Below are positions 6,872 to 20,245 of a stretch of DNA of 64,000 nucleotides, piece after piece. Within the stretch, counting starts at the first letter, position 1; the number at the start of each line of letters is the position of its first letter. Where the stretch lies: NCBI RefSeq assembly GCF_013391085.1, contig NZ_CP058334.1, positions 1,736,001 through 1,800,000 of the forward strand. Direction: 5' to 3'. The translations under genes and the position numbers were made by a program. Source of the DNA: Natronomonas halophila. GTDB taxonomy: Archaea; Halobacteriota; Halobacteria; Halobacteriales; Haloarculaceae. The notes under the pieces were generated by a model. It made no database searches, was not told the DNA's origin, and worked only from the letters and a program-made list of their open reading frames with translations.

Positions 6872-7085
6872 CCGCCTCGGCACCGCGGCGCTGGCTTCGG
6901 CCGTCGGGTCGTTGCTCGCGGTGGTCGTCGGCATCGGCGTCGTCTCGCTGTTCGCCGAATGGCGCGGCGTCTGGACCAGTTACTTCCTGATGGAACGGAC
7001 GATAGACGCCGGCGCGCCCGTGGTGGCCGCGCTCGGCGTCCTCGCGTTGCTGGCGGGGTTCGTCGTCGTCTACGGGGCTACGTAG
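6864..7085 (+). CDS. Small two-span membrane protein, unknown function
   Basis: A 73-residue protein from ATG 6864 (MSNRLGTAAL), overlapping the upstream gene. Two hydrophobic helices (about residues 8-28 and 48-70) flank an aromatic loop (EWRGVWTSYFLMERT). The loop resembles that of the preceding protein, where tryptophans and an ERT/EST-type motif also precede helix 2, so the two may be diverged paralogues. The end overlaps by 8 bases the end of the convergent TorD-like gene. Confidence 0.6.
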   Translation: MSNRLGTAALASAVGSLLAVVVGIGVVSLFAEWRGVWTSYFLMERTIDAGAPVVAALGVLALLAGFVVVYGAT

Positions 7086-7725
7086 GCACCTGCTGGGCGA
7101 CGAGTTCGTCCTCGAACTCGACGAGGCCGACGAACACCTCCGTCGCGGCGAGAAAGAGGTTCGCCTCTGCTTCCTTCATGTCGAACTCGTCCTGAACCGT
7201 TTCGAGGAACGCCTCGTGCCATCGCCCGAGGTGTTCGTCGAGGAAGACCCGCTCGAAGCCGAAGGCGGCCTCCTCTCCGCGTCGCTGGCGGTCGACCAGA
7301 TCGCGGAGGAACGCGAGTTCGACGGCGATGTGGTCGTTTTCCTCGGGGTAGTCCTCGTGGGGCTTCCAACCCGCCGCCGAGTAATCCGCCTCCAGTTCCG
7401 CGAGTCCCTCGCCGATGAAGTCCGTGTCCTCGCGATAGTAGGTCTCGTGGGGAAGCGCCGGTGGACGCGGCCCCACGAACAGCCGTGTGTACTCCGTTCG
7501 GAGTTCGTCGGAAACGTCCTCGACCGACCGCGACCGGTTGGCTTCGATGAACGCCTCGAGCCGTTCGAAGCCGCGGTCCATCGGGTCGTTGATTTCTCCC
7601 TCGGGGACGGCTACCTCGTCGGAGAACAGCCGTCCGAGGAACTCCTCGTCGGGGGCGTCGTAGAACACCTCGATGAGGAAATCGATCACTTCCAGTCGCG
7701 CCTCGTAGATTTGAGTTTCGTCCAT
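7078..7725 (-). CDS. TorD/DmsD-family molybdoenzyme chaperone
   Basis: A 215-residue helical protein. It carries the family signatures EYTRLFVGP with PHETYY near residues 78-100, and PEENDHIAVELAFL near residues 147-160. TorD/DmsD proteins bind the Tat signal and apo-form of DMSO-reductase-family enzymes and promote cofactor insertion. Its start overlaps the stop of the HdrA/MvhD-like gene by 1 base (TGATG), so the two are coupled. The obvious client is the Tat-signal formate dehydrogenase encoded divergently at 10077. Confidence 0.85.
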   Translation of the reverse strand: MDETQIYEARLEVIDFLIEVFYDAPDEEFLGRLFSDEVAVPEGEINDPMDRGFERLEAFIEANRSRSVEDVSDELRTEYTRLFVGPRPPALPHETYYREDTDFIGEGLAELEADYSAAGWKPHEDYPEENDHIAVELAFLRDLVDRQRRGEEAAFGFERVFLDEHLGRWHEAFLETVQDEFDMKEAEANLFLAATEVFVGLVEFEDELVAQQVPT

Positions 7726-9881
7726 CAGTTTTCACCTCGCTCGAACAGCAGCGACGTTCGACAATCGCCACAGTACTCGAAGACCGAATGCGGTGAGTTG
7801 GGTGCGATACCTTGAACCGCGTCGCCGACCTCCCCGCGGACCTTGTCGATGGTTCCGGCGGACGCGAAGGGCTTGCCGCAGCGAACGCATTCCTGCATCT
7901 CGCCCTCGTAGACGCTCGTCCAGGCGGCACTCGGGACGTCCTCGGGGACCTCCTCGCGGACCTCCTCGCGGTTCTCCGGGAGGAGCGACAGGTCCAGTCC
8001 GTCCTGCATCGTGATGGCCGTCTCCGGACACCCCTCCTCGCAGAGGCCGCAGTTGACACAGCGTTCGTGGTTGAACAGCAGGTCGCCCTCGTTCGTCCGC
8101 TGGATGGCGTCGGTCGGACACAGGTTCGTACAGGTCGGCGTGAGGTTGCAGGCGTCCGAGACGTCCATCCAGCCGAAGTCCTTCAGGCCGCGGATGACCT
8201 CCCGGTCGGGGTCGACGTGTTCGAGGAGGACGCGAACGGACTCCAGCGTCCACGCGTGGGAGGCAAACGCCGGGCGGTCGATGTCGCCCTCGATGGTGCC
8301 CTCGGCCTCGTGTTCGCCGGCGGGGACCGGCGACTCGTCGAGGCGCTCGACGACGAACCTGGAGAGTTCCTCGACGAACTGGCCGGGGTCGTCGGCCCCG
8401 GGTGCGAAGAAGCCGACGCGCTCGCCCAGACCGAGATCGGCGGTCGCGCGGTTCAGGCGCTCGACCAGTTCCGCCTTGGGGTCCGGTCCGGAGTGCAGAC
8501 AGTCGCCGCCACAGCCGACGATGGCGACGCCGTCGGCGCCCGCCGCCAGCGCGTGCATGACGTGGGCCTCCCCGACAGTGTCGGTGCAGTTGACTTTCAC
8601 GGGGAGAATCGGCGGATAGGAGACGTCCTCCTCGATGGCCGCCCGGCGGCCGTACTCGCGCAGCCGGTCGGCGGCCCGCTCCGAGCAGACGAAGGCGACG
8701 ACCGGCTGGTCGATGCCGCTCGACCCCCGATTGAACAGCCAGCCCCCGTTGTCGTTTTCGGCCTTCAGCAGGGCTTCGACTTCGCGGGCGATGCGGCGGT
8801 TCGAGGGCTCCCGGAGTTGCGTGGCCCCGGTCGGACACGCCGAGGTACAGGCGCCGCAGTCCTGACAGGCCACCTCGTCGAACTCGACGGAATCGACCGA
8901 CGGTCGACTGACCGCGTCGTGCGGACAGGCGTCCGTACAGGCCGTACAGCCCTCCTGTGAGGAGGCGCCCGCGGCACAGACGTCCATCTCGAGGTCGAGG
9001 AACGCGGGTTTCTCGATACCGCCGAGTTGGGATTCGACGGCCGCTATCGTGGCGGCGTCGACGTGGCCGGTGTAGTAGCCCACGCGACCGCCGCGGGTAT
9101 CCGGGTCGGCGTCGGGATGGATGACCTGGTCGACGGCGATGCGGCGGGTCGTCCCGTCCATGTCGATGGCGTCGGTCGGACATACGTCGGTCCATTCGCC
9201 GTCGGGCGCGTCGGCCGGAATCTGGACGGGGCGTCTGGTGACGCCGTCGGGGCCCTCCCGGACGCATTCCATGCAGTCGATGCAGGCTTCGGTGACTCGC
9301 GATTCGAGGGTGAGTTCGAACTCGCCGAACCGCCCGTCGACGTCGACGACCTCCCCGCGAGCGATATCCACGTCATCGAGGTCGGCATCGACGTTGGCGA
9401 GTTCGCGGCCGTCGGCGACGAGCGTGACATCCGCCGAATCGGCGAGGGCGGCGGCAGTTTCGGAGTCGCCCACGACCGCGACCGAGTCGCCGGCCTCCCG
9501 GGAGACCGTTCTGGAGACGGCTTCCTCCTGCAGCCCCGCGTGGGTCGCGTTGAGCAGGCGGGCGGTCTTGTCGGTCGCGGCCTCGCTGTCGTGGACCCAC
9601 GCGGCCCCCTCGCGGTGGTCGACGAAGGCCGCCGCATCGGGGTGGAGCCCTTTCCGCTCGACCAACTCGCGGAACGTCCGTTTACACCGGTCGTCGGACG
9701 CCGTTACGATGAGTTGGTCGAGGTCGTACTCGTCGATGACGTGTTCGACGCCGTCGAGACCGCCCTCACAGAGTAGGTCAGAGGACGCCACGACGTCGAC
9801 GTCTCGAACACCCTCGCGAACCTCCTCGAGGTCGAGCCCACAGGTGCCGCCACAGCCGCAAACGAATGCCCCTACATTCAT
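7725..9881 (-). CDS. HdrA/MvhD-like multi-cluster iron-sulfur fusion protein
   Basis: A 718-residue cytoplasmic protein without a signal. Order of parts: an HdrA-type N-terminus with CGCGGTCG at residues 8-15; a region at 131-180 that sits where HdrA binds FAD but lacks a clear GxGxxG; cysteines at 200-206 and 234; ferredoxin clusters at about 302-319 and 339-349; an MvhD/FlpD-like domain at about 393-490 (VAFVCS, then VGCGGDCLHSG); two ferredoxin motifs at about 578-588 and 608-618; and a CxxC...CxxC zinc- or rubredoxin-like end at 665-707. HdrA and MvhD are subunits of heterodisulfide reductase/hydrogenase systems. Here they probably form an electron-wiring protein for the formate dehydrogenase encoded divergently. 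Confidence 0.75.
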   Translation of the reverse strand: MNVGAFVCGCGGTCGLDLEEVREGVRDVDVVASSDLLCEGGLDGVEHVIDEYDLDQLIVTASDDRCKRTFRELVERKGLHPDAAAFVDHREGAAWVHDSEAATDKTARLLNATHAGLQEEAVSRTVSREAGDSVAVVGDSETAAALADSADVTLVADGRELANVDADLDDVDIARGEVVDVDGRFGEFELTLESRVTEACIDCMECVREGPDGVTRRPVQIPADAPDGEWTDVCPTDAIDMDGTTRRIAVDQVIHPDADPDTRGGRVGYYTGHVDAATIAAVESQLGGIEKPAFLDLEMDVCAAGASSQEGCTACTDACPHDAVSRPSVDSVEFDEVACQDCGACTSACPTGATQLREPSNRRIAREVEALLKAENDNGGWLFNRGSSGIDQPVVAFVCSERAADRLREYGRRAAIEEDVSYPPILPVKVNCTDTVGEAHVMHALAAGADGVAIVGCGGDCLHSGPDPKAELVERLNRATADLGLGERVGFFAPGADDPGQFVEELSRFVVERLDESPVPAGEHEAEGTIEGDIDRPAFASHAWTLESVRVLLEHVDPDREVIRGLKDFGWMDVSDACNLTPTCTNLCPTDAIQRTNEGDLLFNHERCVNCGLCEEGCPETAITMQDGLDLSLLPENREEVREEVPEDVPSAAWTSVYEGEMQECVRCGKPFASAGTIDKVRGEVGDAVQGIAPNSPHSVFEYCGDCRTSLLFERGEN

Positions 9882-10076: not shown

Positions 10077-13000
10077 ATGAGCACAGAACCAGTCTCCTTG
10101 GACCTCGACCGACGGTCGTTCATGAAGGCGAGCGCCCTGACGGGCGTTGTCGCACTCGGTGGCGGTACCGCTGGGCAGGTACTCGCCCAGAGCGACGATG
10201 AGGTCGATGGACAGGACACGGAAGGAGAGTTGACAAAGACTATTTGTAACTACTGTTCGGTCGGCTGTGGCTTCCACGGCGAGCGAAAGGGTGATACCTT
10301 CGTTGGCATGGAGCCATGGGAAGACCACCCGATCAACAACGGGTCGCTCTGCTCGAAAGGGGCAGGCATCTACGAGACCGAACACTCCGAAAAGCGCCTC
10401 AAACACCCGATGATTCGGGAAGACGGCGAGTGGAAGAAGCTGTCGTGGGATACCGCCTACGACCGCCTCGGCACCGACATTCGGGCCCTGTGGCCCGACT
10501 CGGACGTTTCGCCGAGCGACGCCGTCGACGTCGACGAAGAACACAGCCGCGAGAGCGTGATGCTTCTCGGGAGTGCCCACCACTCCAACGAGGAGTCCTA
10601 CGCCATCCGAAAGCTCGCGGGATTCATGGGAACGAACAACGTCGACCATCAGGCACGCATCTGCCACTCGACGACGGTCACCGGCCTCGCGAACACGTGG
10701 GGTTACGGTGCGATGACCAACACCGTCTCCGATTACCGCAACTTCGACCTCGACATCATCATCGGACAGAATCCCGCCGAGGCCCACCCCATCGCGATGC
10801 AGCACATCCTCGAGGGGCAGAAGCGTGGCGGGGACATCCTCGTGCTCGACCCGCGGTTCACGAAGACGGCAGCCCATGCCGACGAATTCATCCGGTTCAG
10901 GCCCGGGACCGACGTGGCGCTGATGATGGGCGTCGTCAAGGAACTCCGCGACGAGTACGGGCTGGCGCTGGACCCGGACGCCGACGACACGGGCCAGAAC
11001 ATGCTCTCGGACCGCGTCCAGGGCTGGGAAGACGTCGACGCCGAACTCGACCAGTACGACAAGGAGACGGTCTCGGACATCACGTGGGTCTCCGTCGAGG
11101 ACATCGAGCGAATCGCCGAGATGGTCCACGAGAACCGCCCCCACGTCCAGATCGAGTGGGCGATGGGCGGCACCCAGCACAACAACGGGACCCAGAACAT
11201 CCGCTCGTACGCCGTCGCGAGCCTCGCCTCCGGAAGCGCGGCCCGCAGCGGCGGCGGCCTGCAGGTCATGCGGGGCCACGCCAACGTTCAGGGTGCGACC
11301 GACCTCGCGGTGGCGAGTCACATCCTGCCGGGCTACTACGGGCTCACACCCGGCGGCTGGTCGTGGTGGGCCGAAATCTGGGACAAGAACCCCTACACCA
11401 GCGGGTCGACCTCGTTCGAGGACATGTACGACAAGTTCGAGTTGATGCCGCCGGACAAGTACGTCCGACAGAGCGGCAACGAGGAACTTGAGCCCGATTC
11501 GCTCCCACCCAACGAAAACCACGGCCCCGAGGAACCGGCCGCGAACTCGATGATGTTCCAGAACGGGCTCACGGTCGCCCGCTGGTTCGAGGCGGCCCTC
11601 GACCAGGAGGACCGCTATCAGGACACGCCGATTTATCAGCCCGACCAGGTGAAAATCGCCGTGTTCTGGGGCCACTCCGCGAACTCCATCAGCGAGATGG
11701 AGCAGATGAAGGAGGGCATGGAGAACCTCGACCTGCTGGTCGTCGTCGACGTGTTCCCCTCGGTGGCGAGCGTCCTCCCCGACTACGAGGACGGCCCGCC
11801 CGTCCTGTTGCTGCCGGCGTCGAGTCAGTACGAACACTACCGTTCGCTGACGAACACGAACCGGTCGGTGCAGTGGTCCGAACCGGTCGCCAAGCCCGCC
11901 CACAACTCCCGTCCCGACCTGCGAATCATGCAGGAATTGGCCGACGAACTCGGCTTCGGCGAGCACTTCGACTGGGGCAGCGGCCCCGAGTTGTACAACG
12001 GAAAGTCGACCTACGAGAACGTCATTCGGGAGTTCAACCTCGGGACGAACACCATCGGCTATCGGCAGACACCCGAACGGCTCCAGCAGCATCTGGAGTA
12101 CGACTACGCGTTCTCCAGCGAGGACCTCAAAGGCGCCGAAGGGACGCCCGTCGAGGGCGAGTACTGGATGCTTCCGTGGCCCTGCTGGGGCGAGGGGCAT
12201 CCGGGGACACCCATCATCTGGAACGACGACATGGACCCCAACAACGGGGGACAGGACTTCCGGACTCGATGGGGCGTCCAGGCCCCGTCGCCGGACGACT
12301 GGGACGCGATGCCCACCGACGACGATTACCCGCTTCAGGAGACCGTCGACGCCCACGACGATATGGAGGAGGCGCTCGACCTGACGCGAGCGCCGTACGT
12401 CCCCGACTGGGCCAGCAACCGCGATCTGGCCGAGGACGGACAGATTCACGGCGTGCCGGAGTATCCGGGCTGGAAAATCACGCCGCCACAGAGCCTCATC
12501 GACCCGACGCAGTCGACACAGTCCGACGAACTGACGATACCACAGCAGTACGCGCTGGACAATCAGGAGTCGGTCTACACCGCCGCACAGGCACTCGACG
12601 ACCCCGACACCGGAAGTCCGGAGTTCGACGAGTACCTCCGGACCATGATTGGTGAGGGCGTCGACCCCGACTTCTACGAGGAGTACGACTACAAACAGCC
12701 CGACGCCCCGACCGGTCGGGGTCGGGCCCGGGCGGTCGTCTGGAGCTTCCTCGATAAGATCCCGGTGCATCGCGAACCCATCGAGAGCCCGCGGTCGGAC
12801 CTCGTCGAGGAGTGGCCGGCGAACGGCCAGCAGCGGAACCACTACCGCCTCGACCAGAACAACGCGGCCGAACAGCAGACGGCGATGGACATCATCCACG
12901 GCGATGGCGACGGCCCGGAGCTCGATACCATCATGACGACCGGTCGGCAGGTCGAACACCAGGGTGGCGGCGCGGAGACGCGGTCGAACATCCACACCGC

Positions 13001-13448
13001 CGACCTGCAGCCCCACATGTACGCGGAGATAACGCCCAACAAGGCCGAGGACCTCGGCGTCGACGGCGGCGACCTCGTCGTCGTCTCCTCGACCGACCGG
13101 GGGTCGGTGCTCGTGAAGGCACGAGTGACCGACCGGCCCAACGACGACGAGGTGTTCCTCCCGTTCCACTGGGGCGGGGTGTTCAAGGGCAAGAGTCAGG
13201 AGGACAAATACCCCGAAGGCACCGTCCCGTACGCCATCGGCGATTCGGCGAACGCGATTACGTCACGGGGCTACGACGTCGAGACGCAGATGCAGGAGAC
13301 GAAGGTGTCGATGGTGGCCGTCCGACCGGCTACCCAGAGCCTGCTCGAGGAACTCGGGATGGACACGGACCTCGAGTTCCCGCAGGACCGTGACGGCATC
13401 GGCCAGCAGAAGGACTTCGACGTCCGTGACAGCGAAACGGTTCAATGA
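10077..13448 (+). CDS. Formate dehydrogenase-N-like catalytic subunit, Tat-exported, cysteine type
   Basis: A 1123-residue molybdopterin oxidoreductase. A Tat signal (DRRSFMK, then a hydrophobic stretch ending QVLA) covers about residues 10-37. A [4Fe-4S] site follows: Cys57, Cys60, Cys64 and Cys92, with Lys94 (CSKG). Cys196-His197 (RICHSTT) replaces the selenocysteine-histidine of E. coli FdnG, and the FdnG-like stretches GAMTNTVSD, AEAHPIAMQ, GGTQHNNGTQNIRS and GGGLQVMRGHANVQG follow. The closest named function is formate oxidation to CO2, with electrons passed to the beta subunit. It is about 100 residues longer than FdnG. A ribosome-binding site overlapping its stop leads into the beta gene. 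Another substrate within the family cannot be excluded. Confidence 0.85.
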   Translation: MSTEPVSLDLDRRSFMKASALTGVVALGGGTAGQVLAQSDDEVDGQDTEGELTKTICNYCSVGCGFHGERKGDTFVGMEPWEDHPINNGSLCSKGAGIYETEHSEKRLKHPMIREDGEWKKLSWDTAYDRLGTDIRALWPDSDVSPSDAVDVDEEHSRESVMLLGSAHHSNEESYAIRKLAGFMGTNNVDHQARICHSTTVTGLANTWGYGAMTNTVSDYRNFDLDIIIGQNPAEAHPIAMQHILEGQKRGGDILVLDPRFTKTAAHADEFIRFRPGTDVALMMGVVKELRDEYGLALDPDADDTGQNMLSDRVQGWEDVDAELDQYDKETVSDITWVSVEDIERIAEMVHENRPHVQIEWAMGGTQHNNGTQNIRSYAVASLASGSAARSGGGLQVMRGHANVQGATDLAVASHILPGYYGLTPGGWSWWAEIWDKNPYTSGSTSFEDMYDKFELMPPDKYVRQSGNEELEPDSLPPNENHGPEEPAANSMMFQNGLTVARWFEAALDQEDRYQDTPIYQPDQVKIAVFWGHSANSISEMEQMKEGMENLDLLVVVDVFPSVASVLPDYEDGPPVLLLPASSQYEHYRSLTNTNRSVQWSEPVAKPAHNSRPDLRIMQELADELGFGEHFDWGSGPELYNGKSTYENVIREFNLGTNTIGYRQTPERLQQHLEYDYAFSSEDLKGAEGTPVEGEYWMLPWPCWGEGHPGTPIIWNDDMDPNNGGQDFRTRWGVQAPSPDDWDAMPTDDDYPLQETVDAHDDMEEALDLTRAPYVPDWASNRDLAEDGQIHGVPEYPGWKITPPQSLIDPTQSTQSDELTIPQQYALDNQESVYTAAQALDDPDTGSPEFDEYLRTMIGEGVDPDFYEEYDYKQPDAPTGRGRARAVVWSFLDKIPVHREPIESPRSDLVEEWPANGQQRNHYRLDQNNAAEQQTAMDIIHGDGDGPELDTIMTTGRQVEHQGGGAETRSNIHTADLQPHMYAEITPNKAEDLGVDGGDLVVVSSTDRGSVLVKARVTDRPNDDEVFLPFHWGGVFKGKSQEDKYPEGTVPYAIGDSANAITSRGYDVETQMQETKVSMVAVRPATQSLLEELGMDTDLEFPQDRDGIGQQKDFDVRDSETVQ

Positions 13449-13460: not shown

Positions 13461-14117
13461 ATGTCTCAATCAAACAAAGAAGTGATGGGCGATGGCGTGA
13501 TGAGCGTCGGCGAGGGAACGCGAATCTTCCCGGACGTCGGCGCATGCATCGACTGTGGCGGTTGCGTCGTCGCCTGCAAGCGAACGTGGGACGTTCCCCA
13601 CGACGAACAGCGAATCAGCATCTCGACGATGCTGGAGGGTCAGGAGGGCGACGGGGGGTCAGCGGCGAACGCGCTCGCACAGGGCGACTCGCCCGGCGAG
13701 ACGTCCATCCCGATGCAGTGTTACCACTGCGACAACGCACCCTGCGTTTCGGTGTGTCCGACCGACTCCCTCATCAAGACCGACGACGAGTTCGTCGACG
13801 TCCGCGAGGACCTCTGTGTCGGCTGTCAGTACTGTCTGTCGGCGTGTCCGTTCGGGGCGCCGCAGTTCCCCGAGGAGGACGACGGCGCCGCACAGGTGTT
13901 CGGTACCGGCGGTAAGATGGACAAGTGTACGATGTGTGAGGAACGGCAGGACGTCGGCAAGGGGCCGGCCTGTGCCGAGGAGTGTTCGACCGACGCCATC
14001 CTCGTCGGGCAGCCCTCGCAGATCGCCGACGAACTCGATAGACGCGACGAGGGTCCGTTCTTCAACGACGTGGCGATGGACATCGTCTTCGGTGAGGACG
14101 CCGGTGAGTTCCAATGA
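13461..14117 (+). CDS. Formate dehydrogenase beta-like subunit with four [4Fe-4S] clusters
   Basis: A 218-residue ferredoxin-like subunit. Cysteine groups occur at residues 29-39 (CIDCGGCVVAC), about 87-101 (CYHCDNAPCVSVCP), about 115-126 (CVGCQYCLSACP) and about 155-175 (CTMCEE with CAEEC). The pattern matches FdnH/DmsB electron-transfer subunits with four cubanes. Unlike E. coli FdnH (294 residues) it has no C-terminal membrane helix; the sequence ends in a polar, acidic tail. The stop overlaps the next start by 4 bases. Confidence 0.88.
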   Translation: MSQSNKEVMGDGVMSVGEGTRIFPDVGACIDCGGCVVACKRTWDVPHDEQRISISTMLEGQEGDGGSAANALAQGDSPGETSIPMQCYHCDNAPCVSVCPTDSLIKTDDEFVDVREDLCVGCQYCLSACPFGAPQFPEEDDGAAQVFGTGGKMDKCTMCEERQDVGKGPACAEECSTDAILVGQPSQIADELDRRDEGPFFNDVAMDIVFGEDAGEFQ

Positions 14118-14500
14118 GTCACGAGACGCCCGAGGTCGAGGGGTACTCCCCGATATCGGTCTTCATCTCGGCGCTGGTCGGCATCGTGGTCGCCGTCCTG
14201 TCGGTGTGGTGGGCCAGCGGGTTCGGGCCGTTCTACGAGACGCTCTTCCGCGTTGGCCCCACCGTCGAGGGCGGCGGCGTCGGCGCCGACTGGGTCGCCG
14301 GCAACACGATTCCGGCCCTGGACTTCCTCATCGCGCTGGTCCACGCCGCCGACGTCATCCTGGGCGTGTTCATCCTGCTCCTGGTGTTCCTCCACTGGGC
14401 GAGTTTCCGCCGTCTCGCCGCTCGGATGCGGCACCCCGGGGAGGATGAGACGGGCGAGACCGTAATGGCCGACGGCTCCGGTGACGGAGGTGAACGCTGA
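14114..14500 (+). CDS. Two-span membrane protein of the formate dehydrogenase operon
   Basis: A 128-residue protein with helices at about residues 14-36 and 66-92 and an acidic C-terminus. It is not a recognised standard Fdn subunit. It lies between beta and gamma genes, with 4-base overlaps into it from beta and a 1-base overlap into gamma, so it is likely made stoichiometrically. Because the beta subunit here lacks its usual membrane helix, this protein may supply the anchor. It carries His60-range polar residues only sparsely and a single histidine in helix 2 (LVHAADVI). Confidence 0.65.
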   Translation: MSHETPEVEGYSPISVFISALVGIVVAVLSVWWASGFGPFYETLFRVGPTVEGGGVGADWVAGNTIPALDFLIALVHAADVILGVFILLLVFLHWASFRRLAARMRHPGEDETGETVMADGSGDGGER

Positions 14501-15510
14501 TGACGAATCTCGACCACGGCAAGTTCACGCGGGTGACGACGCTGTTCCACTCGCTTTTGGCGCTCGACGTGTTCCTGCTGTTCTTCACCGGCTACGCCAT
14601 CATGTTCAACTCGGAGCTGTGGTGGCTGATGACGCTGATGGGCGGTGCGACCGGCGTCACCGCGCTGCACCGCATCGCCGGCATCGGCCTCGTCGCGCTC
14701 ATCGTCTTCTGGATGGTGCTGATGCTCATCAGCCCGACCGGCCGGAGCAACTTCGCGGAGATACTCCCGGTGAAAGAGGACATCGAGGCGTTCCTACAGG
14801 ACGTCCAGTTCATGCTCGGGCGGGCCGACGAACGCCACCCCCACGCCCGGCAGTTCGCCGGCTACGAGTCCGACGAGGTGCCGCTGCTGTCCTACGTGGG
14901 CAAGGGCGTCGTCGCCATCTTCGCCATCGAGTTGACCCTGCTTACCATCTCGGGGCTGCTCATCTGGTCGAAGACCGGCCTCATGTCGTACTTCGCGACG
15001 CGAACCGCAGCCATGGCGTTCGTCGTCTTCCATGGCCTACTGGGGATTATCATGCTGATGGGGGTGATGTTCCACATCTTCGAACACGGGATGCATCCCG
15101 CCTTCTACCCCGTCGAGACGAAGGCGTTCATCCCCCGGAGCATGATCCCCGAGAGCCACGACGACGACGAGGACCACGACGGGACGGGCATCGAGCGGCT
15201 CGAACTCTCGCCGAGCTGGCACTCCGTCTCGACGGTTTTCGGCTCGTTCGTCGTCATCGGTATCGTCTCGGTGTTGATGGGGAGTATCGTCCGGGAGGGA
15301 TACCCGGTCCCACGGGAGTTGGTCGTCAGCGGTGACCTGACGAATCTCCTGCTCACTATCGGTATCAACATCGGGATATTCGTGCTGTTCGTCGGCCTCG
15401 TCCTCTCGATGTACGGTAACGTGATGCGAGTCCGTTGGGAAAAGGAGGTGCAGCGCCGCCAAGAGCGCGAGACGGTCGCGGACGGTGGCGAAACCCGGAC
15501 GGACGACTGA
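14500..15510 (+). CDS. Formate dehydrogenase gamma-like cytochrome b subunit
   Basis: A 336-residue membrane protein of the FdnI/cytochrome b561 type. It begins DHGKFTRVTTLFHSLLALDV, with an early histidine in helix 1, and further conserved histidines follow (ALHRIAG; VVFHGLLG; FHIFEHGMHPAFY). These are candidates for two b-heme sites. FdnI has about 217 residues and four helices; this protein has about 120 extra residues, with two additional hydrophobic segments near 235-258 and 278-302 after a charged DDDEDHD loop. It should pass electrons from the beta subunit to membrane quinone, probably menaquinone. Last gene of the operon. Confidence 0.82.
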   Translation: MTNLDHGKFTRVTTLFHSLLALDVFLLFFTGYAIMFNSELWWLMTLMGGATGVTALHRIAGIGLVALIVFWMVLMLISPTGRSNFAEILPVKEDIEAFLQDVQFMLGRADERHPHARQFAGYESDEVPLLSYVGKGVVAIFAIELTLLTISGLLIWSKTGLMSYFATRTAAMAFVVFHGLLGIIMLMGVMFHIFEHGMHPAFYPVETKAFIPRSMIPESHDDDEDHDGTGIERLELSPSWHSVSTVFGSFVVIGIVSVLMGSIVREGYPVPRELVVSGDLTNLLLTIGINIGIFVLFVGLVLSMYGNVMRVRWEKEVQRRQERETVADGGETRTDD

Positions 15511-15539: not shown

Positions 15540-15941
15540 TCAGGCTGTCAGCAGTTCCGCGCCCTCTTGGGATAGGTCCACGGTGACGTCCTGTCGCGTC
15601 TGTTCTTGAATCTGGTCGATGTTACGCGTGAGGACTTCGAGGATGTCCTTCGGCTCCGGGTACACCAGCATGTTCCCGTCTTCGTCCTCCATCACCAACT
15701 GGGTGTCCGAGAGGGTCACCTGGTCGTTCTCGATGCTGGCGACGATGGCCGGCAGCGCCTCCGCCCCGCCGGGGTCGCCCTCCTCGACTCTGGTGATATA
15801 GACGGAATCGAGGCCGATCAGGTCCTTGTACTCGCGGACCCGCTCGGCGCAGTTGACCATGTCCCTCGTCACTTCGGTCTTGCGTTGGTTCCCGTGTTCT
15901 CCGTCATAACAGTGCTTACACACCCGTAGCTCGATTCGCAT
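15540..15941 (-). CDS. Haloarchaeal protein with N-terminal CxxC, unknown function
   Basis: A 133-residue soluble protein starting MRIELRVCKHCYDGEHGNQ, with cysteines at 8 and 11 and a third near 31 (VNCAERV), so a metal site is possible. The remainder is mixed alpha/beta and acidic. It converges on the formate dehydrogenase operon with a 29-base spacer. No recognised family. Confidence 0.6.
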   Translation of the reverse strand: MRIELRVCKHCYDGEHGNQRKTEVTRDMVNCAERVREYKDLIGLDSVYITRVEEGDPGGAEALPAIVASIENDQVTLSDTQLVMEDEDGNMLVYPEPKDILEVLTRNIDQIQEQTRQDVTVDLSQEGAELLTA

Positions 15942-17489: not shown

Positions 17490-18170
17490 CTATTCCTCTT
17501 CGATGTCCCAGTCGGCCTTCTCGGCGGCCGTCTCCAGCGGGACGAACTCCCAGCCGGATTCCTCGGCAATCCACTCATCTTCGGGGGTGCCGACGACGGC
17601 CAGTCGTTCGGCGTAGAACATCGACGTCTTGCCGATATCGGCGAGTCGTTCGGCGGGCCCGGTCCCCGTCCCGTTGAAGAAGTCGGCGTCGATGGTGTGT
17701 TCGCGCTGGAACTTGGTGATGACCGGCGCGCTCACGTCGCCGACGATGCCGACCCAGTCGGCCCACTCGCGGGCCGAGGCAACGACAAGTTGCGGGTCGG
17801 ACAGCGCGGTGACGGCATTGTAGGTCAACGCCATCGTCATATCGTCGACGCCGCCGCCGTGGGGGCCTTCGGCCATCGGTTCGGCGTCGTCGGGAGCGTT
17901 GCTGACGGTCGCGCCGGCGCCCGAGCCACCGCTTTCGGTCGGCACGCCCGCTGGCTTGTCCTCGTTTTCCCGGGGGACGCGCGGGACAGGGCCGTCGTCG
18001 TCGGTCGCGTCCGCCTCGGCGTCGGCACTTCCGGCGCTTGCCGCCGGCGCCGGCGCGTCGGGTTCGTCGTCCGGGTCGCCGTCCTCGCGCCACAGCCAGT
18101 CGCCGTGGTTGGCCTCCGGTTCGTCGTCATCGTCGGTTTCGATGTCGTCGAGGTCGATTTTGTCAGTCAT
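17490..18170 (-). CDS. Acidic 226-residue protein coupled to the AOR homologue
   Basis: The start is taken at 18170 (MTDKIDLDD), which overlaps the stop of the upstream aldehyde oxidoreductase homologue by 8 bases. The first about 110 residues are acidic and low in complexity (Asp, Glu, Pro, Ala), and the C-terminal about 115 residues form a compact domain (ALTYNAVTALSDPQLVVASA...). It contains no cysteine, so it cannot supply an iron-sulfur cluster. The domain is not one I recognise. Coupling to the oxidoreductase suggests a partner protein. Confidence 0.6.
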   Translation of the reverse strand: MTDKIDLDDIETDDDDEPEANHGDWLWREDGDPDDEPDAPAPAASAGSADAEADATDDDGPVPRVPRENEDKPAGVPTESGGSGAGATVSNAPDDAEPMAEGPHGGGVDDMTMALTYNAVTALSDPQLVVASAREWADWVGIVGDVSAPVITKFQREHTIDADFFNGTGTGPAERLADIGKTSMFYAERLAVVGTPEDEWIAEESGWEFVPLETAAEKADWDIEEE

Positions 18171-19983
18171 CGTCGTCGGTTTCGGTTCGCGGGGCGGTTT
18201 CGGGGGCGGCGCCGACGGGCGTGTCGTGGTCGACGGTCGCTTCGAGGTCGAGCCGTTCGAGCGTCTCGCGGGTCGGCAGCCCCTCGCGACTCCAGCCGCG
18301 AGCGGCGTAGTAGGCGTCAAGCAGGACGTCGAACTCCGCGGGGTCGATGCGGCCGCCTTCGGCGGGCCCGTCGGAAATCGGCTCGGTGAAGGCGGCGGGC
18401 AGTTCGTCGGTTGCGCGGTCGAAGCCCTCGCGGGCGTTGAACAGGCGCACGAGGTTCCAGACCCGTTCGCCGACCCGGTGGAGTTCGTCGGGAGCGTAGT
18501 CGTCGCCGAGGGCGTCGAACCACTCGGCGCCGAAATCGTCCCACAGCGGTTCGCCCGCGAAGTCGTCGGCGACGAAACTCCACAGCGCCGAGCGGGTGTT
18601 CTGGGCGGCGACCACGGCCGCGACCCGCTCGCTGGTGTCGGCGTCCTCGGCGAAGGCCTCCCACTCGATGGGCCGGGCCCGCCGGTGGCAGCCGCCACGG
18701 TCGCTGGTCGCGTAGGCCAACGCCATCCCGGCGGCGGCCCGGGGGTCGTAGGCGGGCAGTTCCATGGATTTGACCGTCGGGATGACGTCGTCGGTGCCGT
18801 AGGCGTCGCTTGCGGCGTCGACGCCCTCGGCGAGCGTCTCGGCGACGCCGGCCTCGCAGGGGCCCGCAGCGCCGGTCGCGATGGCCTCGATGAGCGCGCG
18901 GGCGCCGTCGGCGTCGCCGAAGGCCAACTCGCAGTCGATGTAGTCGGCCTCGGCGGCCCGAATCGCCCACGCGACGGCGTTGCCGGCCGAAATCACGTCG
19001 ATGCCGAGGCGGTCACAGAGGCCGCCCAACTCCGCGACGGCGTCGAAGTCTTCGACGCCGAGGCCGGCCCCGAGAGTCATCGGCGTCGCGCCGCGCGGAA
19101 CGGAGGTCCCCTCGTCGGTCTCGATTTCGAAGCCGCCGGGTACCTCCCGGTCGGGGTGTTCCCGGCCGACGGCGGCCTCGGCGGCGGCCTCGATGCCGAT
19201 GTCGTCGGCGGCCTCGAACTGGTCGCGCTGCCAGCCTTCGGTGGCGAGGGCGCCCACCTCGTTGGCGAAGTCGATGCTTTCGAGCGTCTCGCCGGCGGCC
19301 TGCCACCGGCCGGTGTCGCCCTCGGCGTACTCGCGCTCGTAGCGTGCCCGGAGGTCGGCGAGTTCCGGCGGCGTCTCGGGGGTGCCGTTCCGGACGACGA
19401 CGGCCTTGAGCCGTTTGGCGCCCATGACCGCGCCCGCGCCGCCGCGGCCGGCGTGGTGGTCGCCAGCGTCGGAGGCGATGGTCGCGTAGGCGACGCCATG
19501 CTCGCCGGCCGGGCCGATGCAGGCGACGCCCGAATCGGGGTGGGCCTCGGCGGCCGCGACGGTGTCCTCGCCCCACGTCTCTGCGGGTTCGATGTCTCCC
19601 TCGCCGTCCTCGATGACGATGCGGACCGGCTCGTCGGCCTCGCCGGTCACGAGCACGGCGAGACAGTCCTCCAGCGACCCGGCGAGGCGGCCGGCGAAGG
19701 CGCCGCCGGCATACGAGTCAAGAAAGCCGCCGGTCAGCGGCGATTTCGTCACCGCCGCATAGCGGGTTTCGCCGGGCAGGTAGCCTGACAGCGGGCCGAT
19801 ACAGAAGGCCAGCAGGTTATCGGGGCCGAGCGGGTCAGTGCCGGCGTCGAGTTCCTCGTAGAGGTAGCGCGCGCCGAGGCCCTTGCCGCCCAGAAAGCGG
19901 CGTCGCCATCGCTCGGGAACGCGTTCGCGGCTGACGGTCCCCGACGAGAGGTTCGCTCGTAGGACGTACTCGCGTCCGGCCAT
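18163..19983 (-). CDS. Aldehyde ferredoxin oxidoreductase homologue lacking cluster ligands
   Basis: A 606-residue member of the AOR family, using the start at 19983 (MAGREYVLRANLSSG). Tungstopterin-binding features are kept: LGGKGLGARYL, TKSPLTGGFLDSYAGG, the AGRGGAGAVMGAKRLKA loop, CDRLGIDVISAGN and SMELPAYDPRAA. The CxxCxxxC motif that binds three corners of the [4Fe-4S] cluster in P. furiosus AOR (Cys288/291/295) is absent: the segment between the family-conserved GWQRDQFE and LGAGLG has no cysteine. The fourth ligand (Cys494, in DSAGLC) is replaced by SFVADDF. The proposed catalytic Glu313 aligns with Ala, while His448 (RGGCH) is kept. A normal ferredoxin-linked reaction is therefore unlikely. 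Confidence 0.8.
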   Translation of the reverse strand: MAGREYVLRANLSSGTVSRERVPERWRRRFLGGKGLGARYLYEELDAGTDPLGPDNLLAFCIGPLSGYLPGETRYAAVTKSPLTGGFLDSYAGGAFAGRLAGSLEDCLAVLVTGEADEPVRIVIEDGEGDIEPAETWGEDTVAAAEAHPDSGVACIGPAGEHGVAYATIASDAGDHHAGRGGAGAVMGAKRLKAVVVRNGTPETPPELADLRARYEREYAEGDTGRWQAAGETLESIDFANEVGALATEGWQRDQFEAADDIGIEAAAEAAVGREHPDREVPGGFEIETDEGTSVPRGATPMTLGAGLGVEDFDAVAELGGLCDRLGIDVISAGNAVAWAIRAAEADYIDCELAFGDADGARALIEAIATGAAGPCEAGVAETLAEGVDAASDAYGTDDVIPTVKSMELPAYDPRAAAGMALAYATSDRGGCHRRARPIEWEAFAEDADTSERVAAVVAAQNTRSALWSFVADDFAGEPLWDDFGAEWFDALGDDYAPDELHRVGERVWNLVRLFNAREGFDRATDELPAAFTEPISDGPAEGGRIDPAEFDVLLDAYYAARGWSREGLPTRETLERLDLEATVDHDTPVGAAPETAPRTETDDDD

Positions 19984-20038: not shown

Positions 20039-20245
20039 TTAGTTCTCGTCCAGCGCCGCGACGTCGGCGGCGCTCGGCTCGTCGGGCAACTCCTCGATAC
20101 AGTCGAAACAGAGGAAATGTTCGGTGCCGTCCTCGAACTCCAGTGTCATGCCGCCGGTGCCCTCGGGGTCCGACGACCAGATGCCGGAGATACCCCCGCC
20201 TATCGGCACGTCGTCGCCACAGCCCTCACACGGTTCGCTGGCCAT
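20039..20245 (-). CDS. 68-residue zinc-finger-like protein
   Basis: Two cysteine pairs are visible, CEGCG at residues 6-9 and CFDC near residue 46, with a glycine-rich stretch between them (VPIGGGISGIW). This fits a treble-clef or zinc-ribbon fold. The C-terminus is acidic. It belongs to a small haloarchaeal family of unknown function. Confidence 0.7.
   Translation of the reverse strand: MASEPCEGCGDDVPIGGGISGIWSSDPEGTGGMTLEFEDGTEHFLCFDCIEELPDEPSAADVAALDEN

Follow-up and report, generated by a model that had tools for sequence, protein, structure and literature searches.

A Clusterless Paralogue of Haloarchaeal Tungsten Aldehyde Oxidoreductases Linked to Formate Dehydrogenase Genes, with a Possible Role in Cofactor Maturation

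The window, the 64,000-nucleotide stretch of Natronomonas halophila DNA that was analysed, contains a gene for an aldehyde oxidoreductase (AOR) family protein without cluster ligands, designated here clAOR. This gene, its neighbours and the residues discussed below are listed in Table 1. A formate dehydrogenase (FDH)-like gene set lies about 5 kb from clAOR. The catalytic subunit of this set does not pass the equivalog cut-off, whereas the clAOR-linked cytosolic FDH of another locus (L040) does. Copies of the 133-residue CKHC protein, 73-96% identical, are found near clAOR in loci of Natronomonas, Halostagnicola and Natronococcus. A second FDH of the same genome, with a frame of about 1100 residues, is encoded away from clAOR (G000:C1:3037574-3042448) and has its own YqeC nearby.

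The original prediction had asked whether the lineage keeps the acidic gene downstream of clAOR. This gene, for a DUF7124 protein, was found in about 20 of the 54 named clAOR loci and was not found in the rest, and it is therefore not the main partner. An obligate partnership was rejected on the same count and because most genomes carry a core copy; a strongly matching DUF7124 copy is present in 144 of 146 genomes, most of which have the core copy. Many clAOR genomes also contain a second, more divergent copy, which stands directly beside clAOR in several. In clAOR-linked loci that have a Tat-type FDH (L046:11248-11829, L123), DUF7124 is followed by a pair of small acidic proteins with no Pfam match, one of about 117 and one of about 62 residues, together with a CxxC protein and a short membrane protein.

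Table 1. Genes and residues of the clAOR locus (window positions; PfAOR, P. furiosus AOR)
Feature	Position	Strand	Basis or remark
TorD/NarJ-type molybdoenzyme chaperone	7078..7725	-	
FlpD/HdrA-like polyferredoxin	7725..9881	-	recurrent beside Tat-type FDH
Formate dehydrogenase-type catalytic subunit, Tat-exported	10077..13448	+	TIGR01591 best model, below cut-off
FDH beta-type 4Fe-4S subunit	13461..14117	+	
FDH gamma-type cytochrome b561 subunit	14500..15510	+	
133-aa protein, N-terminal CKHC motif	15540-15941	-	no Pfam match; adjoins window FDH genes
DUF7124 protein, acidic N-terminal half	17490..18170	-	start overlaps clAOR stop by 8 bp (coupled)
clAOR, clusterless AOR-family protein, 606 aa	18163..19983	-	domains, alignments, predicted structure
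W468...D473 for PfAOR D489...C494 (second pterin motif and fourth cluster ligand)	18565..18582	-	alignment
C432-H433 = PfAOR C447-H448, invariant	18685..18690	-	alignment
Y412 = PfAOR Tyr427 (Y 65, F 12 of 77)	18748..18750	-	alignment
D324-xxGx-D329, first pterin motif retained (PfAOR D338/D343)	18997..19014	-	alignment
R297-G298-A299 for PfAOR E311-Y312-E313; catalytic Glu313 replaced by Ala	19087..19095	-	alignment
Deletion site of the CxxCxxxC segment (PfAOR Cys288-Cys295), about residues 276-278	19150..19158	-	alignment
T233 = PfAOR Thr243, second-shell, invariant	19285..19287	-	alignment; role from PMC12096430
Small CxxC protein, DUF7561	20039..20245	-	upstream of clAOR, same strand

clAOR is a member of the AOR/WOR family by descent and fold. 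Like P. furiosus AOR (1AOR) and WOR, it contains both Pfam domains over its full length, AFOR_N (E 4e-61, 206.7 bits) and AFOR_C (E 4.8e-89, 299.6 bits), far above the cut-offs. The AF2 model (pLDDT 91.6, pTM 0.92) was superposed on 1aor with a Z of 47.6 and an rmsd of 2.0 over 571 residues, and the three-domain AOR fold is present. Among solved structures, tungsten AORs of 30-34% identity are the best relatives. The genome of the window encodes two more AORs, both canonical, with all ligands present. No match to PF02634 (FdhD) was found in clAOR or in the genome of the window. To our knowledge, all characterised enzymes of the AOR family pair the metal-pterin with a [4Fe-4S] cluster.

Two alignments with P. 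furiosus AOR were made, one pairwise with HMMER and one with MAFFT over 119 sequences, and 77 orthologues were chosen by their states at positions 313 and 494 (P. furiosus numbering). Given this selection, independent evidence comes from the other changes, which all accompany these two states, and from the 77 falling into one clade. The three cysteines of the CxxCxxxC segment are absent from all 77. Positions 312, 489 and 494 are Gly, Trp and Asp, respectively, in every orthologue; position 313 is Ala, Gly or Ser in 77/77, position 311 is Arg in 76/77, and Tyr452 is mostly lost. A putative Arg297-Asp473 salt bridge is suggested where the cluster stood. Column analysis of the 77 orthologues gave no substitute cluster cysteines: C155, C323 and C432 correspond to the non-ligand positions 162, 337 and 447. 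Compared with 1AOR and WOR, R76, G95, R186, T243, D338, D343, R444 and H448 are kept in clAOR, whereas N93 is Tyr, R182/A183 are His-His, and the gene is FDH-linked. Thr243, Asp343, Arg444, Cys447 and His448 are retained in 77/77.

The original prediction, made from the sequence of the window, is thus borne out for the missing CxxCxxxC site and Cys494 (Asp473), for Ala at the position of Glu313 (Ala299) and for the retained His448 (His433); structure prediction and the alignment to P. furiosus AOR gave the AOR fold and confirmed the loss of ligands. Its further claim that ferredoxin-coupled aldehyde oxidation of the usual kind is impossible is supported by the loss of the cluster and Glu313. 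The claim that the pterin-binding framework is kept holds for half of it. Of the two class I pterin motifs of the form DxxGx(D/C), the first (in domain 2, D338xxGxD343) is intact and the second (in domain 3, 489-495, D489xxGLC494) is replaced. Because of this second change, binding of a bis-MPT cofactor is not assured.

In the 23 cofactor and active-site columns that were scored, the mean entropy is 0.31 bits, compared with 1.15 bits for all columns (permutation p < 5e-5). Some of these columns are pocket positions of the 1AOR structure. The others were drawn from PMC12096430, where Thr243, Glu313, Tyr427, His448, Tyr312, Tyr452, Asn93 and Ala183 are given as AOR second-shell or active-site residues, and where proton and electron transfer are attributed to Glu313, Tyr312, Tyr452 and the cluster. 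As the pocket columns are far more conserved than the rest, the pocket appears to be remodelled and not decaying.

In the 2026 classification (PMC13328260) the definition of class I includes the [4Fe-4S] cluster, and the tungstopterin- and cluster-binding residues are reported to vary little. The AOR/WOR members in the literature searched, this classification included, are described as cluster-bearing. clAOR lacks the CxxCxxxC and distal Cys that hold the single [4Fe-4S] cluster of class I. In the class I second-shell set, Thr243 and His448 are present, Tyr427 is mostly present and Glu313 is absent, so that the set as a whole is not conserved. Judged from its sequence, clAOR lacks defining features of an aldehyde:ferredoxin oxidoreductase (WOR class I) and is not a canonical enzyme of this class.

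The distribution of clAOR was determined in 146 haloarchaeal genomes sampled across the order of the window. The gene occurs in 71 of them, and about 13 of the 17 sampled families are represented; the named loci include those of Natronomonas, Halorubrum, Natrinema, Haloterrigena, Halobaculum and Halolamina, among others. The 77 orthologues, about 50-87% identical, come from haloarchaea only and fall on one branch of the tree (support 100/99). Its sister is a haloarchaeal paralogue (L114-L117; 43-47% identity in the genome search) that shares N93Y, R182H, A183H, K450R and C447-H448 with clAOR but keeps the four cysteines and Glu313; three of its loci (L115-L117) are without FDH. This paralogue is rare (4/146 genomes), and two of the inspected loci have an aldo/keto reductase next to it. 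The ten best matches outside haloarchaea that were checked in the phylum search (at most 40% identity) keep all four cysteines, and matches on non-haloarchaeal contigs, 28-36% identical, retain the ligands in nearly all that were aligned. Since clAOR forms one clade beside a four-cysteine haloarchaeal paralogue, a single loss of the [4Fe-4S] ligands and the catalytic Glu in a haloarchaeal ancestor is the simplest and the likely history. The survey for AOR-family proteins without these residues thus yielded a lineage-wide clade, which the original prediction had overlooked together with the loss of the second pterin motif and the gene linkage described next.

FDH is the commonest neighbour of clAOR, present within about 8 kb in 35 of the 54 loci, a set that partly overlaps the 71 genomes. 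An FDH gene lies within 12 kb of clAOR in 50 of the 71 genomes, where, given genomes of roughly 3.3 Mb with some 1.6 FDH genes each, about 1 is expected by chance. The next neighbours over the 54 loci are polyferredoxin, small acidic proteins, formaldehyde dehydrogenase, YqeC, a CobW-type GTPase, DUF7124, TorD and MobA. In 44 genomes the distance between clAOR and YqeC is at most 12 kb. The clAOR-FDH loci show several arrangements and both relative orientations, varying by lineage, so the linkage is not one frozen operon. A protein of about 199 residues with no Pfam match (L051:6527-7126, L040:7220-7804) stands beside the cytosolic FDH in 13 of the 54 loci, and it is also found beside cytosolic FDH in genomes without clAOR.

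Co-occurrence was scored from presence lists compiled by hand. FDH is present in 69/71 genomes with clAOR versus 34/75 others (Fisher p 3e-13), and YqeC (TIGR03172) in 70/71 versus 17/75 (Fisher p 7e-24), both values ignoring relatedness. For this reason a control was run on an RpoB species tree of 109 genomes, from which 19 independent pairs differing in clAOR were taken. YqeC differed in the same direction as clAOR in about 13.7 pairs and in the opposite direction in 0.0 (median p 1.2e-4); the values for any FDH were 8.5 and 0.1 (median p 0.008). With one FDH subclade left out the FDH values become 14.3 and 0.1, a partly circular result because this subclade was noticed through its missing clAOR. 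The associations of clAOR with FDH and with YqeC survive the species-tree control. Twelve genomes with canonical AORs only have neither FDH nor YqeC.

FDH occurs without clAOR in 15 genomes that have another AOR and in 19 that lack AORs altogether. An absolute requirement of FDH for clAOR was rejected on these counts, and clAOR therefore cannot be a universal substitute for FdhD. YqeC tracks FDH more widely than clAOR does. An FDH subclade with the motif DNCNRLCH was found solely in genomes without clAOR (G005, G006, G053 and G088, among others), most of which have no AOR-family protein; it is possibly a Mo rather than a W enzyme.

FdhD is the known sulfurtransferase and carrier for the FDH cofactor. 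A profile search for it was positive in 0/146 haloarchaeal genomes and in 8/14 control genomes, and the FdhD gap of halobacteria is stated as an open question in a 2023 review (PMC10609526). YqeC has been proposed as an accessory protein of selenium hydroxylases (PMC2276186). SelD and YqeB score above cut-off in the same 10 of the 146 genomes only. The YqeC linked to clAOR is therefore mostly SelD-independent, and a selenium pathway for it was rejected. This member (L051:7132-7926, L123, L089 and others) stands beside FDH, clAOR and MobA and is separate from the SelD-YqeB-linked YqeC of the ten genomes.

The evidence places clAOR with FDH biogenesis or function. The reading favoured, held tentatively and at somewhat under even chances, is that a clusterless paralogue of the haloarchaeal tungsten AORs was recruited to FDH maturation, probably in Mo/W-pterin handling. 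The protein may still bind a Mo/W pyranopterin of the bis-MPT type through the retained half-pocket R76/G95/G185-R186/D338/D343/R444, and the invariant Thr243 and His448 would then lie beside the metal. Because a protein without the cluster would be unable to turn over aldehydes and electrons, clAOR may hold, protect or finish the cofactor. In lineages lacking FdhD, clAOR would then deliver the cofactor to apo-FDH together with YqeC and with MobA, which attaches GMP. A metal-pterin holder fits better than aldehyde turnover because one pterin site, the Thr and the His are kept while the cluster, Glu and Tyr are lost. MobA and TorD recur in clAOR loci. That clAOR binds the cofactor, that it acts as a carrier or finishing protein, and in what order the steps run are inferences. 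That clAOR, SelD-independent YqeC and MobA constitute an alternative FDH maturation pathway of haloarchaea, with a former tungsten enzyme handling the cofactor, is a bolder proposal, to which perhaps one chance in three is given. YqeC rather than clAOR could be the real substitute for FdhD, and shared regulation or C1 metabolism, instead of maturation, could account for the gene linkage.

The main rival, considered unlikely though with a substantial share, is that clAOR has remained an enzyme. It would be a W/Mo-pterin protein with no cluster, active in formate or C1 metabolism without Glu313, and its reaction would either be redox-neutral or deliver electrons directly to a partner. Cluster-free DMSO reductases give electrons directly to a partner protein. 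The strongly conserved pocket, in which Thr243 and His448 are invariant and position 427 is Y or F across 77 orthologues, agrees with catalysis, as do the zinc formaldehyde dehydrogenase found in 14 of the 54 loci and the dimethylglycine dehydrogenase-like genes that also recur nearby. This enzyme would, however, have dispensed with Glu313, Tyr312, mostly Tyr452 and the cluster, the very groups of proton and electron transfer (PMC12096430). The loci do not share one conserved partner subunit, and MobA, YqeC and TorD are genes of maturation, not of a substrate.

Less probable again is a structural or regulatory pseudo-subunit, which would bind FDH or sense the Mo/W cofactor with no cofactor transfer. 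The loss of catalytic groups from a retained fold and pocket is what such a protein would show, and the linkage to FDH is compatible with it. The linked FDHs belong to several subfamilies, however, both exported and cytosolic, as is more to be expected if clAOR is a general maturation factor than if it is a dedicated subunit, and the Pfam search of clAOR gave no DNA-binding or sensor domain. The ranking is therefore the maturation role, then the C1 enzyme, then the pseudo-subunit. The wording of the original prediction, a cofactor-binding, regulatory or differently reacting protein, pointed in the right direction without committing to any of these.

An ordinary AOR with its cluster bound by other residues is very improbable: the clade does have three near-invariant cysteines, but these occupy the non-ligand positions, the ligand loop is deleted and 494 is never Cys. 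A sequencing error, frameshift or decaying pseudogene can practically be dismissed, because, apart from a few relatives with fragmented or interrupted frames, the 77 concordant orthologues from about 13 of 17 families carry identical substitutions under strong constraint; misalignment was ruled out on the same ground.

Among known proteins, FdhD resembles clAOR in its proposed pathway position only, Mo/W cofactor handling for FDH; the sequences are unrelated. YdhV and BamB both keep the [4Fe-4S] cluster. Like clAOR they are AOR-family proteins with altered second-shell residues, but in them the metal has one more ligand, a Cys (PMC12096430), and the gene context differs. In the literature searched, which included few subscription papers, no description of a clusterless AOR clade or of a link to FDH was found; this does not prove the clade undescribed. 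A 2021 paper on the AOR family reportedly distinguished 92 clades, five now obsolete.

A clade without the cluster and with a constrained pocket indicates that the AOR fold can be reused. Where a genome annotation lists an extra aldehyde ferredoxin oxidoreductase, the gene may have been misread. The tie between clAOR and FDH provides a concrete and testable candidate for how halobacterial FDH may receive or finish its cofactor without FdhD (PMC10609526).
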